Assembly (NCBI GenBank): GCA_026706345.1
Contig: JAPOYX010000142.1
Coordinates: 1-37,859 of the forward strand
Length of the DNA: 37,859 bases
Source of the DNA: Gemmatimonadota bacterium
GTDB lineage: Bacteria > JAAXHH01
Reading direction: 5' to 3'
In this document: one piece after another, positions 12,760 through 28,759 of the stretch
Numbering within the stretch: position 1 is the first letter of the stretch
How the letters are laid out: every line of letters begins with the position of its first letter
Program-made: the position numbers and the translations under genes
The notes under the pieces: generated by a model
Told to the model about the DNA's origin: nothing
The model's input: only the letters and a program-made list of their open reading frames with translations
The model's database searches: none

Positions 12760-15700
12760 TTACTGATTTGGCTCGAACACAAGTTCCGGTACTACAACCT
12801 CCCATGTGTCGCATTTCGCACTGTCACGGTATTCGGCCTGCGATGCTTCGCGGCTCCAGGACACAATCGCGAAAACAGACGCGGAACCGCCCTCTGATCC
12901 ACTTGGTGGCTCAAATGTTCTGGCAAGACGCCCTACCACCGTTCCTTTTTGGTCAAGAAGTTCCCAGGGTCCGTGCTCGGTGATCCGCGTTGAAAGTGGA
13001 TCGCCGTGCGACAAGGATGAAATAGCACGATGGACTGCGTGGTTGGAATGGAATCGCCCCGCATACCCCAGGTTTATTTCACGCAGACTGGGACGCCGAT
13101 ATTGACGAGCGAGTTCTCTGGTAGGCTTTTGCACTCCGTCCTGTGATCGGTAAAGTATCGATCCATTGTTCGTTCGAAAGGCAAAGGGCAGTGAACGCAA
13201 ATCTCCGGTGTATACTGGGGAATCCGGTTCCTGCACGAGATTTCGCTGCCCGTGATGGCCCATTGAGGAAGGTCCCTGAAAACGCACCGTTGCAAGGGTC
13301 TGTTTGGCACGGGTCATGGACACGTAAAAGAGCCTGCGAGGTGCATCTGGATCTTCATCTTTGTCGACTTTGTCCCAACCACCGTCAAGCACCACTACGT
13401 GTTCAAACTCCAGACCTTTTGCACGGTGTGCCGTAAGCAGCAAAAGGCCATGTTGGCGCCGGCGGGCATCACGTCCCCATTCCGCAAGCCACTCTATGAA
13501 GTGATCCAAAGGAACTTCCCCAACGCCTGATTCCAACGCAAAATCATCCAACGCCGATTGCATCAATTCCTTCCAAGGTCCCGTGGGTACAGTCTTCAAG
13601 CAGTAAGAAAGGTCTGTACTGCTCACCGACCGGCTTTCTCGGTGATGCAACTGGTCGATAAACAATCGTGTCTCGCGCAGGTGCCAGAAACTCGGGATTT
13701 CTTCATTTCCCAAATGTACCGGGATTTCTGAGACCTCGCAGAGCGCTCTTACAGGATCCAGGAATTTCCACTCGCGCGCGATAACCGCACATTCGGACCA
13801 ATTCCAGTCTGGAGAGAGTGATTCAAGACGCTTCAGTTCTCTGATAGCGACTTGGGCTTGCGATATCGGATCGCGTCTGGCATGCAGAATCTGAACCCGG
13901 CCTTTAGAGACCGGATCGAGTGAATCCCACTTTCCGCCTTCGGGGGTTTTCGCACGGGCACGGTCAATACGGATAGGATGTTGCGACTTCATCCTGTTAC
14001 GGGCTGAATCGATAATGGTGTTTGCTGTTGTAATGATATGGCCGGTGGAACGATAGTTTTCGACAAGAAACATCGGTTTGGGTCCGTAATCCTCCTCGAA
14101 TCGTCGGATGAACTTCACTGAAGCCCCGTTGAAGGTATAGATGTTCTGATCATCGTCACCGACGGCAAAGAGGGTGAGTTTGCGGTCCTCATCCTGAAGT
14201 GTTCGCCCCGCTAACGCCGAAATCAACTCATATTGATCTTTGCCTATGTCCTGATATTCATCTACCAGTATCCATCGGAAACCCGCGAGAAGTCGGTCCC
14301 GTTGATCGTCCGCTTCTTCCTCTTCAAGACCCTCCCCGTGCAGCAAAGCTACTGCCTGACGCAGAACTTTCCGGAATTCATCATCGTCGAGCGTTTTCCT
14401 TTCTCGCTCCCGAAAGCTGACGCCTACGATTCGCATAGCGAGCGCATGACAGGTTAGCACAGTAACCCCGCGAGCGTCGTCACCGATCAGTTCCTTCAAG
14501 CGTCGACGTATCTCAACGGCAGCGTGTCGATTGTACGCCAGGGCAAGGATTCCTCGGGGATTCTCCCGTCTTACCCGTACGAGGTAGGCTATTCGATGCA
14601 CAAGTACGCGTGTCTTACCTGATCCGGGTCCAGCAAGAACCAGCATATTCATTTGTTCATGGTCATCTGCGACGATTCTTTGCTGGCTGGGATTCTTCAA
14701 ACTCTCGACGATGGCTCGCCACGATTCGGGCGTGGTCTCCCGTTCGGTTTCTTTTTCACGACTAGGCAGCCAACGCCGTAGGAAATCATCTTGTTTCAGG
14801 CTGAAGTACTCCATGGCCAGTCGCAGCGCTTCGGCCATGTCCTTAAGCCCGCGCTGCGCGAATTCAGCCATTACATGGATTTGACGAACCTGTCCTTTGT
14901 AGTGTTGATTGAGTGGTTCGAAATCTACTTTGGCAAACCCCCTTCTGTCTTCTGCCAGTTTGATGGTCATAGCGGGACGGAATACCGCGAGGCCCTTGTG
15001 AAGACGAATGACCTCCTGCTCATGCAGCCAGAGGAGCGCACGGTCCAAAAGCTTCTCCGGCTTCTTACTATCAAGAAAAAGGTCGGACGTAATCGCGGCC
15101 AATAGCTTGCCCAGCGTAGTTTCGACGAGTAGATCAGTGCCTTGTCTGCCGGCTGGGAGACCGGAAAGCAGACTTTCCAGGAGGCTCCCCGCCCCATTTC
15201 TCCTTCGTGATGCAAGCTCCTCCAGGTCCGACCAGGAGCGCCTTAACGTCACCTGCACGGTATCCATGTTAGTACGCCTTACCCCGAGGCTTCCAGCGTC
15301 GCCACCTTCACCGCGTCCGTCAAAGGCGATACTGTGTAGTATGCGCCAAATACGTTCAGGGAGCGGGTTTTCAACACCATTGGCTCTCAATAAATCCGAT
15401 GCTACGCGCAAATGTAGCGGCCATCTTTCTCCGATACTGATATCCGGAGCTGTTTCACGCATCAGTGAAATCAGTTTGGTTTCCAACTCGGCAGCCTCAT
15501 TGAACCGCTTCTGCGACGATCTGACCACACCTGAGTGAACAAAGGCTGTGAGTGCCGTATCGTTGCTGGCGATGCCTACCCGTTCCAGGTCGTACATAGC
15601 GCCGCGAACGGCTTCGGCACTTAACCCGGAGATTCCCATGAGTTCGTCGGTAGATATGCCTTCATCCGGATCCGCATCGATCAGTGTTTCGGCGATGCTG

Positions 15701-17931
15701 AGCAGTCTTTTGCGATAGTCTTCGGCGATATTCATTTTCGATAACCGATTCTGTGCTTCCTCCACAGAATCCACCCTCAACGACGAAGGAAAGACCTGCA
15801 CTCTATTCTCTTCCCGGGTCAATAAGACCGCCTCTTCAAGCCATGAGACCGCAGTTCGTACCCGGGTATCATCCGTGGTAGAGTCTCTTTCGAATACCTT
15901 CTCATCATCCTCGCCAAGTATCTCGCCGGGTGTAGCCACGACCTCGCCATTCAATCGCTTCTTTCGGTCCAGGTTACGAAGTGACCTGAGAACGCCATGG
16001 ATTTCTTGTCGAGTAAGTCTTGACCGTGCCGACATCCCGAATTGCCGTTCGATGTCCTCAGGTGAATACAATAGCACGCAAAGCGCTGCCTGACGGTCAC
16101 GTCCGGCACGTCCTGCTTCTTGCAGGTAGTTCTCCAACGACCCTGGAATGTCTGCGTGGATTACAAGGCGGACGTCCGGCTTGTCAATTCCCATGCCGAA
16201 TGCATTCGTTGCGGTCACTACTCGTAATTCACCATTTGTAAAGCGATGCTGTACGTCCTTCTTGGTCTCCGGAGGCCGCCCCGCATGAAAAAAGTCAGCC
16301 GCTATTTCTTTATCCTGAAGGAACTCCGCAATCTCTTCGGTCTGACGTCGTGACGCACAATATATGATTGCGCCGCCAGGCCTTGCTTGAGGCAGGTTTG
16401 TCGTCAAAATGTGATGAATGTGTGCGAACTTCTCCCCGCCCGTTGTCGGAATTACCGTAAATTCCAGATTCGTGCGATGAGTGCCGCCGTCAAGAACCTT
16501 CAGTTCGATACCGAGTTCTTCCTTGAAATGCTGTTTGATGTCCGCCACTACATCGGGTTTGGCTGTTGCGGTCAAACACATTACAGGGGGTATCGACTGC
16601 TTTCCGGCTCTTTCGCGGATGAATCGTCCCACGTAACGGTAGTCCGGCCGGAAGTCGTGTCCCCACTTTGAAAGGCAGTGGGCTTCATCCAATACCCAGC
16701 CACCGATCTCACGCTGATCGATCACGCGTCGGACCGCGGTGCTGCGCAGTTGCTCTGGTGAGATGAGCAGGATTCCTGCATCGCCAAGACGAACGCGATC
16801 AAGTGCATCTTTCCGTTCCGGCAGGCTCAACAGTCCGTTAACGGCCACACACGAACCGACGCCCTGTGCCTCCAGACCCGACACCTGGTCTTCCATGAGT
16901 GCGACTAATGGTGAGATCACAACCGTTAAAGCGCCGGTCTTGTCATAGCGAGACAATGCGGGTATCTGATAACACAGGGATTTGCCCGTTCCGGTGGGCA
17001 GTATGCCCAACAAGTGTCGGCAGGACATTGCTTCTTCAATGATGACCTGTTGCATGGGACGACCATCAGCGTCCTTTGGATCTGGACGGTATTCGTCAAA
17101 ACGGAACCATCGTTTGAGTTCTTTTCGAGGATCGTGTCTTTCGCTGCACCAGTCACAGTCCGATTTGCCGCAGGGCGTGTCCCTGAGTTTCCGTACATAT
17201 TCACCAGCTTGCGGATACTGGTGTCGAACCCAGGGTGGCATAACCGAATTGCCTCCCGACACGGACAACCAGGCCAATGCGTACGCAAGGGGCCATCCAT
17301 CGGGATTTTCCTGGCTCAGAACACTTTGACCGTGGTTCGCGACTGCGTTTCCTTCTAGATGGTTTCGGATCGCTTCAATCGCGGCCGAACGGGCTGGTCG
17401 TTCCGCTCCGCGTATATCGGTGAAAACGTCCTCGAAGCCCGTACCATTGGAATTTATGGAAGTCAGGTAATGCCAGGCGGCAAGCAATTCCGCGGACGCA
17501 TTCTGAAATGCATTGTATTGGTTACTTAAGACTTCTATTACGAGACGGGCGTCCAATTCGGGGTCGTTTATGCGACCTTTCTTAAGTTGGCCATCCTGAT
17601 AGTGTTTGACGAGGTAATGATAAGGATTACGGGGAAAGGCAAGAGGGTTGAGCCATAGTGTATCCACCGCCGGTAATTGCAGTACTGCAAGATCCGGCTT
17701 CACGGCTCGCAGGTGTGGTAGATCGAAATAGATCAGATTGTGTCCGAGGAGGAAATCAGTTCCAGTTGCGAATTCGTCAAGTTCAGCCAGTGCTGCATTC
17801 AGGTTCCCCTTGCTATATGTCATGGACCCATTGACCCCTGGACGCACGGCAGCAAATGCGCGTATCCGTCCATCTTTCTTGTTTACTTCGAGGTCAAGAG
17901 ACAGACAGCGCGGGAGTAAGGTGGAGTCCAT
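12760..17931 (-). CDS. Triple fusion: DEDD exonuclease-like, RecQ helicase, UvrD-type helicase
   Basis: A 1723-residue protein that joins three DNA-processing modules. Residues 8-135 resemble a DnaQ/DEDD 3'-5' exonuclease: D13 and E15 (SLDLEV), N65 and D70 (GHNLIYFD), D127 (PELDAR). A C254-x4-C259-x2-C262-x3-H266 cluster may bind zinc. The RecQ SF2 core follows, with Walker A LPTGTGKS 311-318, DEAH 415-418 and QEAGRAGRD 604-612, then a winged-helix-like region to about 800. The SF1A core has AGPGSGKT 1100-1107, DEYQD 1224-1228, TAHRAKGLEFE from 1500 and FYVSMTRAK from 1535. Residues about 800-1070 and 1575-1723 are unassigned. It starts 27 bases after the preceding gene without a clear ribosome site. 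Lower GC than its flanks suggests transfer. Repair or anti-phage roles are both possible. Confidence 0.9.
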   Translation of the reverse strand: MDSTLLPRCLSLDLEVNKKDGRIRAFAAVRPGVNGSMTYSKGNLNAALAELDEFATGTDFLLGHNLIYFDLPHLRAVKPDLAVLQLPAVDTLWLNPLAFPRNPYHYLVKHYQDGQLKKGRINDPELDARLVIEVLSNQYNAFQNASAELLAAWHYLTSINSNGTGFEDVFTDIRGAERPARSAAIEAIRNHLEGNAVANHGQSVLSQENPDGWPLAYALAWLSVSGGNSVMPPWVRHQYPQAGEYVRKLRDTPCGKSDCDWCSERHDPRKELKRWFRFDEYRPDPKDADGRPMQQVIIEEAMSCRHLLGILPTGTGKSLCYQIPALSRYDKTGALTVVISPLVALMEDQVSGLEAQGVGSCVAVNGLLSLPERKDALDRVRLGDAGILLISPEQLRSTAVRRVIDQREIGGWVLDEAHCLSKWGHDFRPDYRYVGRFIRERAGKQSIPPVMCLTATAKPDVVADIKQHFKEELGIELKVLDGGTHRTNLEFTVIPTTGGEKFAHIHHILTTNLPQARPGGAIIYCASRRQTEEIAEFLQDKEIAADFFHAGRPPETKKDVQHRFTNGELRVVTATNAFGMGIDKPDVRLVIHADIPGSLENYLQEAGRAGRDRQAALCVLLYSPEDIERQFGMSARSRLTRQEIHGVLRSLRNLDRKKRLNGEVVATPGEILGEDDEKVFERDSTTDDTRVRTAVSWLEEAVLLTREENRVQVFPSSLRVDSVEEAQNRLSKMNIAEDYRKRLLSIAETLIDADPDEGISTDELMGISGLSAEAVRGAMYDLERVGIASNDTALTAFVHSGVVRSSQKRFNEAAELETKLISLMRETAPDISIGERWPLHLRVASDLLRANGVENPLPERIWRILHSIAFDGRGEGGDAGSLGVRRTNMDTVQVTLRRSWSDLEELASRRRNGAGSLLESLLSGLPAGRQGTDLLVETTLGKLLAAITSDLFLDSKKPEKLLDRALLWLHEQEVIRLHKGLAVFRPAMTIKLAEDRRGFAKVDFEPLNQHYKGQVRQIHVMAEFAQRGLKDMAEALRLAMEYFSLKQDDFLRRWLPSREKETERETTPESWRAIVESLKNPSQQRIVADDHEQMNMLVLAGPGSGKTRVLVHRIAYLVRVRRENPRGILALAYNRHAAVEIRRRLKELIGDDARGVTVLTCHALAMRIVGVSFRERERKTLDDDEFRKVLRQAVALLHGEGLEEEEADDQRDRLLAGFRWILVDEYQDIGKDQYELISALAGRTLQDEDRKLTLFAVGDDDQNIYTFNGASVKFIRRFEEDYGPKPMFLVENYRSTGHIITTANTIIDSARNRMKSQHPIRIDRARAKTPEGGKWDSLDPVSKGRVQILHARRDPISQAQVAIRELKRLESLSPDWNWSECAVIAREWKFLDPVRALCEVSEIPVHLGNEEIPSFWHLRETRLFIDQLHHRESRSVSSTDLSYCLKTVPTGPWKELMQSALDDFALESGVGEVPLDHFIEWLAEWGRDARRRQHGLLLLTAHRAKGLEFEHVVVLDGGWDKVDKDEDPDAPRRLFYVSMTRAKQTLATVRFQGPSSMGHHGQRNLVQEPDSPVYTGDLRSLPFAFRTNNGSILYRSQDGVQKPTRELARQYRRPSLREINLGYAGRFHSNHAVHRAISSLSHGDPLSTRITEHGPWELLDQKGTVVGRLARTFEPPSGSEGGSASVFAIVSWSREASQAEYRDSAKCDTWEVVVPELVFEPNQ

Positions 17932-23597: not shown

Positions 23598-23628
23598 CAG
23601 GATCGCCGGAGTGAAAGGACCGAAGTAT

Positions 23629-24381
23629 ATGACAAAGGTCATCGAGGGGGAGCGCAACCGTTTCCACGGCGTGGAAGTCGGTTCGGACGCCCTGCCCGAC
23701 ACAGCGGACGGCTTTATGGAGCGCCTGGACCACTCGATCCGGGAGTGGAAGGCAGAGGGCCTCCAGGTCGCCTGGTTCAAGGTTCCCCTGTCCCGCGCCT
23801 TTCTCATTCCCGCACTGGTGGACGCGGGAAGTGTATTTCACCACAGTACCACCGACTACCTGATGCTGACGCTTCGCCTGGCCGAAGGCGCGTTCGTGCC
23901 GATGTACGCGACGCATTACATCGGCGCCGGCGGCGTGGTGATAAACGAAAAGAACGAACTGCTCGTGGTCTGCGAACGGTTTCGCGGGGGCCGCGCGCCG
24001 TACTACAAGCTGCCCGGCGGAGCGCTGCAGCCGGAGGAGCACCTGGCCGAAGGCGTCGTCCGCGAAGTATTCGAGGAAACGGGCGTGCCGACCCGCTTCG
24101 ACGGCCTGGTCTGCTTCCGCCACTGGCACGGTTACCGCTACGACAAGTCCGATATTTACTTCGTCTGCCGCCTGAAGCCGCTTCACCAGATCATCAAGAT
24201 GCAGGCTTCCGAGATCGAAGAATGCCTTTGGATGTCCGTGGCGACCTACATGGGCTCGGAGAACGTCAGCCAGTTCAACAAGCTCATCGTCAAGGCCGCC
24301 GTGGAGAACCAGGGATTGAAGGAAACCTGGGTCGACGGCTACGGAGACCCGGACCGGTACGAGTTTTTCATGCCGGAGTAG
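23629..24381 (+). CDS. Nudix hydrolase with NUDT6-like N-terminal domain
   Basis: A 250-residue protein in two parts. The first 100 residues match the pre-Nudix domain seen in NUDT6 (FGF2-antisense) and plant Nudix proteins: NRFHGVEV, then IREWKAEGLQVAWFKVP and a FHHSTTDYLMLTL segment. The Nudix box starts at G131 and follows GX5EX7REUXEEXGU exactly, with the catalytic REVFEE. Nudix enzymes cleave nucleoside diphosphates linked to another group; the substrate here is unknown. ATG 23629 is preferred over GTG 23611 because AAAGGA sits 9 bases ahead of it. Last metabolic gene before the defence island. Confidence 0.9.
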   Translation: MTKVIEGERNRFHGVEVGSDALPDTADGFMERLDHSIREWKAEGLQVAWFKVPLSRAFLIPALVDAGSVFHHSTTDYLMLTLRLAEGAFVPMYATHYIGAGGVVINEKNELLVVCERFRGGRAPYYKLPGGALQPEEHLAEGVVREVFEETGVPTRFDGLVCFRHWHGYRYDKSDIYFVCRLKPLHQIIKMQASEIEECLWMSVATYMGSENVSQFNKLIVKAAVENQGLKETWVDGYGDPDRYEFFMPE

Positions 24382-24446
24382 GGCAGTGATCATATAGAGC
24401 GGACTATTGTTATGGTCTCTTTGAATGTACGTGGGAGTAAACCCGG
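24382..24446 (+). other. Left junction of the AT-rich island
   Basis: The 65 bases between the Nudix stop and the zorA-like ATG turn abruptly AT-richer. GGGAG lies 9 bases before the ATG as ribosome site. I see no terminator and no convincing promoter pair, so the island may depend on read-through from the upstream operon or on a weak promoter. Confidence 0.4.
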
Positions 24447-25781
24447 ATGAGCACTTATGTGATAATATCCACTTTCGTCGTCGCGATTATCCTGGTGGTC
24501 TTTGTTTTCAGGAAACACGTAAACTCCACGGCTTCCCTGGTAACTGTGATCGGGGTGCTTGGGACTTTCTGTGGAATAGCATGGGGACTTGCGCATTTTA
24601 ACCCTGCGAATCCTGACGAAAGCATACCCGAATTGCTCGACGGGTTGATGTTCGCGTTCTTGACCTCTATTTGCGGGATATTCGCGTCAGTTGTCATCAA
24701 GCTGACCGAGTTGTACAAAATGAAGAAAAGAACGGATTCGGAGGAATCGCAGCCTGTTGTCGGAGCGACGATTGACGATTTGGCGGCAACCCTGGTGGAT
24801 ATCCTGAGTGCGATACAGAACGGCGCTAAAGAAAACAGGGAGACATTGAAATCAGTTGAGGCTGCATTAACCGGGGATGGTGAAAGCACCGTTCTCACTC
24901 AGCTGCAAAAACTCAGAACCAGCTTCTTGGATAAACAGGACGAAGTCATTCGGGCTATAACGGCATTTTCAGATCAAGTCGCCGAAGACAATACAAACGC
25001 GTTGATAGAAGCGCTCGAATCTGTTATGAGGGATTTCAATACGAAGATAAACGAACAATTCGGGGACAATTTCAAGCACCTGAATGAAGCCGTTGGCCGT
25101 GTCAATGACTGGCAGGAACAGTATCGGTTACAAATGAATGACCTTGCCGACGTAATTGCAGCCGCGATGGAGAGCATGGATAAATCGCGTCAGACACTGG
25201 AGACAATCACCAAACAGTCCGATGTATTTGTCGCCACCGCTAATCACCTAGAACCTGTTCTTCAAACGCTTCAGGAACAGTTGGTGTCAATGAACAATCA
25301 GATGGAAGCGTTCAGCACTCTGAGTGAAAATGCCCGTGTTGCATTTCCACTGATAGAAGAACGCCTTGAAAAACTGACCACCGAGTTTTCTGAAGCCGCG
25401 TTGGATACCATAAGCAGATCCCAAGAGGATGTAAGGAACCAACGACGCAATCTCGACAGACATGCCTCGCAATTCGATGAATTAGTCCAAAAGACCCACG
25501 AGCAGTTTGAAAAACTGATTAATGATACAAACACAAAACTGACCGCGGAGTCCGAAAGAGTTTTCACGGAAAGCACACGACAAATTGCTCAGCAAATCAG
25601 CGTGTTAGACAAGGCGTTGGAGAAGGCGCTTACAGAGTCGATCAACTCGATGGGTAACCAACTCGCAAGCCTCTCAACCAAGTTTGTCGAGGATTACGGT
25701 CCCCTTACATCTAGGCTCCGCGAAGTTGTTAGGTTGGCAGACGGCCTGCCGAGCAATACTGATTCAAACCCCGACAGTTAA
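24447..25781 (+). CDS. zorA: ZorA-like MotA/TolQ/ExbB-family motor protein with coiled tail
   Basis: A 444-residue membrane protein. Three membrane segments are visible: residues 4-21, 31-50 (VIGVLGTFCGIAWGL) and 66-88 (GLMFAFLTSICGIFASVVIK). The LGTFxGI and AFxTSIxGIxxS pairs are the MotA/ExbB proton-channel signature. From about 100 to 430 it is a hydrophilic, Glu/Gln/Leu-rich helical tail with heptad character and no Cys or Pro-rich breaks, as expected for the cytoplasmic ZorA rod. In Zorya, ZorA and ZorB form a proton-driven inner-membrane complex that senses phage infection and activates an effector. Its TAA overlaps the next ATG (TAATG). AT-rich relative to neighbours. Confidence 0.82.
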   Translation: MSTYVIISTFVVAIILVVFVFRKHVNSTASLVTVIGVLGTFCGIAWGLAHFNPANPDESIPELLDGLMFAFLTSICGIFASVVIKLTELYKMKKRTDSEESQPVVGATIDDLAATLVDILSAIQNGAKENRETLKSVEAALTGDGESTVLTQLQKLRTSFLDKQDEVIRAITAFSDQVAEDNTNALIEALESVMRDFNTKINEQFGDNFKHLNEAVGRVNDWQEQYRLQMNDLADVIAAAMESMDKSRQTLETITKQSDVFVATANHLEPVLQTLQEQLVSMNNQMEAFSTLSENARVAFPLIEERLEKLTTEFSEAALDTISRSQEDVRNQRRNLDRHASQFDELVQKTHEQFEKLINDTNTKLTAESERVFTESTRQIAQQISVLDKALEKALTESINSMGNQLASLSTKFVEDYGPLTSRLREVVRLADGLPSNTDSNPDS

Positions 25782-26518
25782 TGGATGTAACGAACATGGA
25801 ACTGACCCCGACAAGCCAGAAAGAAACCGAAGAAACATGGATTTCGATCTCGGACATGATGGCCGGTCTGATGGTGATATTTCTCTTTATTGCAATAAGT
25901 TACATGCTATATGTCAGATCTGAAAAAGACAAGATTGAACAGATCGCCCATACTTATAACCAGCTACAGTCCGCATTGATAGACAGCCTCAATAATGAAT
26001 TCAGGTACGACTTCGAAAAGTGGAATGCTGAACTGGTCGATACTACACTATCAATTCAGTTCAGGGCTAATCGGTTAAATGTGCTGTTCGGGCAAGGCGA
26101 GGCCAAGTTACGTCCGTATTTCCAGAATATCCTGAGCGAGTTCTTTCCACGTTATTTGGAAGTTCTAAAGCAATTTAAAGACGAAATCACGGAAATTAGA
26201 ATAGAGGGGCATACCTCCAGTGAGTGGATTACCGGTGTAGGACCTGACAAAGCCTATATCCTGAATATGGAACTTTCGCAGGGAAGGACTCGAAGCGTGC
26301 TCGAGTTTGTGTTGCAAATGCCTTCTATAGAGCAACAGGATAGAAATTGGATCAAAGGGGTGTTGACCGCGAACGGTCTGTCTTCAAGCCAGTTGCTGTT
26401 TGTAGAGGGCACTGAAGACAGAGAAGACAGAGTAAAATCCAGAAGAGTGGAATTCAGGGTACAGACTAACGCGGAAAAACGAATCGATATTATCGTGAAT
26501 CAAAAACAGGGATCATGA
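25781..26518 (+). CDS. zorB: ZorB-like MotB/OmpA-domain motor protein
   Basis: A 245-residue protein. A short N-terminal tail leads into one membrane helix, SDMMAGLMVIFLFIAISYML (24-43), with D25 at its start. This is the spot of the proton-carrying aspartate in MotB and ZorB. The outer part from about 95 is an OmpA/MotB-like peptidoglycan-binding domain: IRIEGHTSSEW (139-149), YILNMELSQGRTRSVLEFV (159-177) and SRRVEFRVQ (220-228). Start ATG overlaps the zorA stop; its own stop overlaps the HNH gene start (ATGA). It would anchor the ZorA-ZorB complex to the cell wall. The overlap pattern implies fixed-ratio production. Confidence 0.83.
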   Translation: MDVTNMELTPTSQKETEETWISISDMMAGLMVIFLFIAISYMLYVRSEKDKIEQIAHTYNQLQSALIDSLNNEFRYDFEKWNAELVDTTLSIQFRANRLNVLFGQGEAKLRPYFQNILSEFFPRYLEVLKQFKDEITEIRIEGHTSSEWITGVGPDKAYILNMELSQGRTRSVLEFVLQMPSIEQQDRNWIKGVLTANGLSSSQLLFVEGTEDREDRVKSRRVEFRVQTNAEKRIDIIVNQKQGS

Positions 26519-27352
26519 ATCTACCTGATTTCAAGCAGCATGAGTTGTTCAACCGGTTTAGAAGAATGATGAACGCCCGATTGGTAGACTGGAGCGAGGG
26601 CGGACTGTGGAATTCCATCGATATTGATGAGATACTGGAAACGACCGGTCATGACATTTCGCCAGAGGAATTAACCATAGCAGGAGATGGAACCCTGGAA
26701 TACAAAGGCCGTAAAGTAGTGGTTTACATTCGTGACCAGCGTGTTCAGTACCAACCATACAAGTTTCATGTTGCCGACTGCAAGAAGTTGACAGAAATGA
26801 GGGATAATGATCGATACCATAGATATGTAGTGTCAAATAGAACGGACGGTACATTCACCGTAAACTCATATGACCGAGGTCAGATTGTAGAAAAGGACGC
26901 CACAAAGAAAATGTCAATATGTAGGTATTGTCTAATTCGTTTAAATTACAATGGTTATGCGAATCGGGATGATCAGTCACGGAACAGGATTCTCGAGTCG
27001 TTTGAACTGGATAAGTTTTTTAGAAGATACTCTTCACATATCACAATTGAACCGACACACACGAACGTCACCGCACCGGCTGACAGTTATACTGTTCATT
27101 GGGAACAAATCTCCCGATTATTCAAGGCACGTAAGAACTGGCAATGTGAAGAATGCCAAGTTTCCCTGTATGACAGGCGAATGTACCTGCACGTTCACCA
27201 CAAAGACGGAGACAAGAACAATAACAAACGCGAAAACCTCCAGGCTTTGTGCATAGCCTGCCACGCAAAGCTACCCCACCACGATCACTTGACACAACAA
27301 CCTGAATACATCGCATACATTAACTGGAAACATACCATCCAAGGACCTACCC

Positions 27353-27360
<8 letters not shown>
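26515..27360 (+). CDS. zorE: HNH endonuclease, ZorE-like effector
   Basis: A 281-residue soluble protein. The C-terminal HNH nuclease has W209-Q-C211-x2-C214, the core LHVHHKDGDKNNNKRENL (H228/H229 to N241), and C246-x2-C249-H250. A second, separate C136-x2-C139 pair (ICRYC) lies in the middle of an otherwise unassigned N-terminal region of about 200 residues. Type II Zorya systems consist of zorA, zorB and an HNH protein, zorE, as the effector thought to damage phage DNA; this gene occupies that position. It starts in an ATGA overlap with zorB. Its last 8 bases lie within the next gene, so the final residues QGPTHG are encoded by that gene's ribosome site and start. Confidence 0.8.

Positions 27361-28759
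<1,399 letters not shown>

Follow-up and report, generated by a model that had tools for sequence, protein, structure and literature searches.

Type II Zorya has been reported in Sulfuricurvum, and the ZorA5B2 complex of Sulfuricurvum kujiense is available as structure 8VVI (PMC11890865). According to the same work, residues H141, S143, R215 and R230 of E. coli ZorB are required for peptidoglycan binding and defence. For ZorE, a structural model is reported in a preprint (PMC13192584), which also describes Druantia-associated ZorE proteins: in 53 of 59 leaves these bear a C-terminal nuclease-like extension, a part often found beside Druantia III.

We analysed a window (the whole stretch of DNA under study, 37,859 nucleotides) that holds three genes with the set, order, overlaps and sequence family of a type II Zorya system. 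Most of the residues named for such systems are kept, and the operon is patchily present at a defined junction. It is very probably a complete type II Zorya system that was acquired horizontally within a Latescibacterota genus. Latescibacterota are an under-studied phylum, known mainly from environmental genomes. Judging by sequence, the window host is in the same genus as a Candidatus Latescibacterota MAG, whose contig JAAXHH010000141.1 is syntenic with the window at ~88.5-88.8% DNA identity and carries a ZorB relative (93%), the sole relative found in a contig search.

Gene layout and family assignment

The operon and its surroundings comprise the following features:

23611..24381, + strand: left flanking gene, NUDIX hydrolase (Pfam), a conserved neighbour
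24382..24446, no strand given: left leader, from the NUDIX stop to zorA
24447..25781, + strand: zorA (type II), 444 aa; PADLOC ZorA2 PDLC00637, PDB 8vvi_F
25781..26518, + strand: zorB (type II), 245 aa; PADLOC ZorB2, Pfam OmpA, PDB 8vvi_A
26515..27360, + strand: zorE, HNH nuclease, 281 aa; PADLOC ZorE2 PDLC00643, active-site residues
27340..27360, + strand: right junction, the 3' end of zorE over the sulfatase ribosome-binding region and start codon
27353..28759, + strand: right flanking gene, sulfatase (Pfam), a conserved neighbour

The insert contains only the three zor genes, all on the same strand. As a preliminary description had stated, they overlap in TAATG (zorA/zorB) and ATGA (zorB/zorE), and the open reading frames of 444, 245 and 281 amino acids match that account. 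ZorA is a MotA/ExbB-like inner-membrane protein that has its membrane helices at the N-terminus and a long helical tail in the cytoplasm, ZorB is a MotB-like protein that combines a single membrane helix holding D25 with an OmpA-like peptidoglycan-binding domain, and ZorE is the short form, without a C-terminal extension. The island had also been described as more AT-rich than both flanks, which agrees with a GC content of 0.44-0.48 across 24501-27500 (1-kb steps) versus 0.61-0.62 in the NUDIX and sulfatase flanks, and with a GC3 of 0.48-0.55 in the zor genes versus 0.77-0.86 in seven flanking genes.

The order zorA-zorB-zorE had been read as type II Zorya, and profile comparison with PADLOC (5027 models) bears this out, the best matches all being type II models: ZorA2 PDLC00637 for ZorA (E 1.2e-100, residues 4-432), ZorB2 for ZorB (E 5.3e-90, 299 bits) and ZorE2 PDLC00643 for ZorE (E 1.8e-74). 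Chance cannot account for matches of this size. For ZorA and ZorB, type I and III models rank below those of type II, the best type I match of ZorB being itself good at 186 bits versus 299 for ZorB2. ZorC/ZorD and ZorF/ZorG are absent beside zorAB, where Pfam identifies the neighbours as NUDIX and sulfatase; a type I or III system was rejected on these neighbours together with the lower model scores for ZorA and ZorB. NCBIfam likewise ranks ZorA2, ZorB2 and ZorE first for the three proteins, with scores below its equivalog cut-offs (156 of 700, 233 of 400 and 167 of 600 bits, respectively), which are score thresholds and no biological feature of type II Zorya, and which are presumably tuned to near kin of the E. 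coli proteins. The specificity of low scores is limited, since hits at E <= 0.001 occur in control genomes too, in B. subtilis with the ZorB2 model and in three others with the ZorA2 model. A second Zorya in the host genome was considered and rejected, as at E <= 0.001 the genome yields nothing more than weak further matches (25.7 bits to the ZorB model, from a 518-aa frame, and 24 bits to the ZorA model).

Pfam gives a weak MotA_ExbB match on ZorA (18.3 bits, under the cut-off of 22.9) and an OmpA match on ZorB that is slightly above its cut-off (28.7 bits versus 27.2). Both would fit an ordinary ExbB/ExbD, TolQ/TolR or flagellar MotA/MotB motor beside which an HNH gene lies by chance, a reading that we regard as exceedingly improbable: whereas MotA_ExbB stays under its cut-off, the ZorA2 and ZorB2 models match nearly end to end, the HNH protein is itself a ZorE, in the order annotated for the E. 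coli plasmid type II Zorya, and the top PDB matches are Zorya structures. The closest solved structures are 8vvi_F for ZorA (E 1.2e-53) and 8vvi_A for ZorB (E 6.7e-42); in the same kind of sequence search against solved structures, ZorE gave nothing beyond chance (best E 0.28). The flagellar MotAB, ExbBD and TolQR families were thus rejected, the best profiles in PADLOC, Pfam and NCBIfam not being theirs. A profile search had been named beforehand as the check, and it assigns the proteins to ZorA2, ZorB2 and ZorE2, not to MotAB, ExbB/TolQ or another HNH family. The MotA/ExbB-like character and long helical tail ascribed to the first protein are in keeping with the ZorA2 and 8vvi_F matches, and the HNH nuclease ascribed to the third gene with the ZorE2 match and the HNH residues that it keeps.

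The NUDIX|sulfatase junction across the genus

We surveyed the junction in 12 genomes of the genus, from G000 (the window) to G011. The NUDIX gene is present in all 12 (partial in one), and the whole operon occupies the junction in two, G000 and G008. In G010 a contig starts inside zorE, so that the last 108 ZorE residues are followed by the sulfatase; the NUDIX gene of this genome is truncated where another contig ends, and the right side alone of its junction is visible. Eight genomes (G001, G002, G003, G004, G005, G007, G009 and G011) have an empty junction in which NUDIX adjoins sulfatase, with a stop-to-start spacer of 57-72 bp in seven of them and ~56 bp in G002. The transfer proposed earlier from base composition is therefore further supported by the eight empty junctions. 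At E <= 0.001 the ZorB2 model matches 12 of 16 genomes of the phylum, only G000 and G008 scoring above 100 bits; the remaining matches (22-27 bits) are read as OmpA-type proteins, and G010 was missed because its contig begins inside zorE.

Directly before the sulfatase ATG, the seven empty spacers carry CGAGGAC(C/T)(A/G)ACC(C/T). A similar leader in the window (AAGGACCTACCC-ATGGCTAA), read in another frame, encodes the last residues and the stop of ZorE. The sulfatase ATG is at 27353 and the zorE TAA stop, which ends at 27360, lies within the first sulfatase codons; this overlap of 8 bases makes the right edge sharper than first stated. The end position of ZorE and the overlap with the sulfatase are identical in G008 and G010. 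The right edge of the insert thus probably lies within ~20 bases of the sulfatase start, and the right-junction piece at the 3' end of zorE would be host-derived. zorE and the sulfatase may be translationally coupled. On the left, the final ~24 bases of the leader are similar to the equivalent stretch of G008, a genome in which zorB is three codons shorter at its end and has no overlap with zorE. Direct repeats of at least 12 bases bracketing the island were sought and none was found, and tRNA-directed insertion was rejected, the window containing no tRNA.

In G006 the same junction holds an unrelated AT-rich three-gene cassette (L081:1557-6187, ~47-49% GC) that encodes a DNA methyltransferase-like protein, a 387-aa protein with zero matches in Pfam, NCBIfam and PADLOC, and a HerA-like ATPase whose closest solved relative is TdpA (8wet, E 1.5e-21). 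The 387-aa protein occurs in 8 of 384 genomes at E <= 1e-5, G006 counted; among the seven others, five have a matching HerA-like gene adjoining it, and one genome, G324, also has the methyltransferase, both within 1.5-kb flanks. The cassette is possibly defensive, and its presence at this junction in a sister species is the most interesting by-product of the analysis.

The genus offers a clean natural series at one junction, namely empty, Zorya and other cassette, and lends itself to studying the movement of small defence systems that carry no integrase. We tentatively propose, at just short of an even chance, that the NUDIX|sulfatase junction serves for the exchange of defence cassettes without an integrase: AT-rich cassettes unrelated to each other, namely Zorya in three species and the methyltransferase/unknown/HerA-like set in a fourth, would be swapped between species, perhaps via homologous recombination through the conserved flanks, with the host supplying the last zorE codons and stop.

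Another AT-richer stretch of the window, at ~12.7-17.9 kb and with a GC content mostly of 0.52-0.55, contains one large helicase gene (12760-17931), whose 1723-aa product joins RecQ-like and UvrD-like helicases. The gene has the same pair of neighbours in 5 of 12 genomes (G000, G005, G008, G011 and, with its frame disturbed, G002). In G003, G004, G006 and G007 the two neighbours adjoin each other without it; G001 and G009 lack one neighbour or have it in reduced form, and G010 is outside the survey. Like Zorya, from which it is 6.5 kb away, it is a patchily distributed insert. In G003, an insert of ~3.9 kb with several small ORFs (L106:4134-7991) lies between two genes of the same cluster.

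Conserved residues, divergence and history

In an alignment of the window ZorB with seven other ZorB proteins, D25, which had been correctly placed in the MotB-like membrane helix, aligns with D24 of E. coli ZorB, and the alignment from the structure search pairs it with D21 of S. kujiense ZorB, as the proposed comparison with characterised ZorB called for. Three of the four peptidoglycan-binding residues are kept (H144, S146 and R221, equivalent to E. coli H141, S143 and R215), and the fourth, E. coli R230, corresponds to D236, a position that is also non-arginine in five of the seven other aligned sequences. The preprint on ZorE (PMC13192584) singles out twelve residues, and at 12 of 12 positions its letters and numbers agree with the E. 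coli plasmid ZorE. The window ZorE keeps 11 of them (H85, E94, Y104, Y192, H229, K234, N237, N241, L242, H250 and H256), the exception being E. coli H235, which is K238 here. Apart from H235, the HNH residues on this list are conserved in each of the three carriers, for G010 over the 108 residues that can be read. T40 and S74 of ZorA are invariant across eight aligned proteins, among which the row for the first ZorA copy of G199 is the upstream ORF only of a gene split over two frames; these two residues would form part of a serine/threonine ring around the motor aspartate.

By analogy with studied relatives, assembly, sensing, rotation, nicking and defence may be expected in the window host as well. 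Five ZorA and two ZorB would form an ion-driven inner-membrane motor, triggered by a phage that pierces or deforms the envelope. The ZorB domain would then grip peptidoglycan and ions would pass D25, upon which ZorA would turn or rearrange its cytoplasmic rod; ZorE would be concentrated at the phage entry site, where its HNH domain would nick phage DNA, and host DNA as well.

Identity between G000 and G008 is 89.8% for ZorA and 93.1% for ZorB, and falls to 71.5% for zorE, versus 93.8% for NUDIX and 95.9% for sulfatase. Fast change in zorE, the lack of ZorB R230 and the absence of the operon from 8 of 12 genomes are what one would expect if this Zorya had decayed or become inactive and persisted as a mere passenger of its neighbours. 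Such a relic is nevertheless very unlikely, as the frames are unbroken in G000 and G008, the three carriers retain the named HNH residues except H235, and dN/dS stays low. Whole-gene values for the two species are 0.11 for zorA, 0.18 for zorB and 0.26 for zorE, and do not exceed 0.31 for any zor gene or part examined in this comparison; over the last 108 zorE codons, three species pairs gave ~0.28-0.42, with ~0.05-0.08 for the sulfatase. The open frames in two species, together with the low dN/dS, point to purifying selection. In its own right, zorE (26515-27360; L003:6735-7580) is far more divergent than zorA, zorB and the flanks, in dN and, in pairs with G000, also in dS; the high dS of pairs that include G000 suggests that allele exchange may be at work in addition to faster change.

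The common right junction and zorE/sulfatase overlap of the carriers would equally be seen if Zorya had been at the junction in the ancestor of the genus and was then lost by most species, rather than spreading among them. We give this history somewhat less than an even chance. The seven empty spacers of 57-72 bp, inspected by eye, hold zero remnants, and spread via homologous recombination through the flanks fits the common junction equally well. The three carriers do not come together in a tree built from four flanking genes of 13 genomes (4962 columns; some rows are incomplete, and G001, G004, G005 and G007 each lack one of the four genes), and their forced grouping as a single clade is rejected (p-AU 5.5e-6), in a tree that is poorly resolved, with 1 of 10 inner branches starred, and that may itself have recombined. 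Because the flank tree is weak and the flanks may have recombined, repeated loss and interspecies spread are both possible routes to the patchy presence.

Range and comparison with known type II systems

The ZorE2 search around G000 matched 30 of 384 genomes at E <= 0.001, for the most part over the HNH portion only and with the E. coli control matching too, and the search around G199 matched 12 of 386 at E <= 1e-25, with zero controls. No donor was found in these 384 and 386 genomes, the closest locus compared being ~46-55% identical. Among 72,556 plasmid records, 14 match, all at <60% identity; four of the five matching stretches inspected are zorA-zorB-zorE and one is without annotation, and the search places type II Zorya on Pseudomonadota plasmids. 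A phage-borne origin was rejected, as ZorE has zero matches in 50,697 phage records (E <= 1e-5) and one short match, to the HNH part, in viral contigs, a scan that detects close relatives only.

A side locus in G199 (L075:2463-9196) consists of zorA-zorB-zorE followed by a second zorB and zorA and by a gene for a 218-aa coiled-coil-like protein, which has no Pfam or PADLOC match and starts MKLPDFGQNRRFASLRKRM, resembling the M-x-LPDF start that ZorE has in this group. From this likeness, the start common to ZorE and the 218-aa protein could be a motor docking signal.

Latescibacter and Zorya were not found together in the open-licence PMC literature, and sequence databases may contain Zorya annotations for the phylum. 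For sponge Latescibacterota, PMC12993501 names CRISPR-Cas, restriction-modification, toxin-antitoxin and DNA phosphorothioation as defence systems and leaves Zorya unmentioned. What is new here is an apparently intact type II Zorya, in its short-ZorE form, from Latescibacterota. The modest news lies in the host range and in the insertion site common to the carriers. The preliminary description had anticipated a wider range for Zorya, which holds insofar as a Latescibacterota relative is added as host; the extension is modest because type II Zorya already occurs on Pseudomonadota plasmids and in Sulfuricurvum, a member of the Campylobacterota.

The gene order of the window is that of the E. coli plasmid type II Zorya, and the motor aspartate, the peptidoglycan-binding His, Ser and Arg and the HNH active site are shared with the S. 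kujiense and E. coli systems. The window system differs from them in length, with a ZorA of 444 aa versus 378 in the S. kujiense chain and 550 in the E. coli plasmid copy, and a ZorE of 281 aa versus 367 in the latter, and in the fourth peptidoglycan residue, R230 of E. coli ZorB, which is not kept. With the Druantia-associated ZorE proteins, as far as they are presented in PMC13192584, the window ZorE has in common the N-terminal zinc-site His and the HNH residues except H235, and it lacks their C-terminal nuclease-like extension. Among seven loci compared, the closest outside the genus is the type II Zorya of G415, a host of a different family, which has an identical gene order, a ZorE that also starts M-x-LPDF, and best segments of 46.5% (ZorA), 55.2% (ZorB) and 45.6% (ZorE) identity. 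We conclude that the window operon is an ordinary type II system that leaves the understanding of Zorya unchanged.
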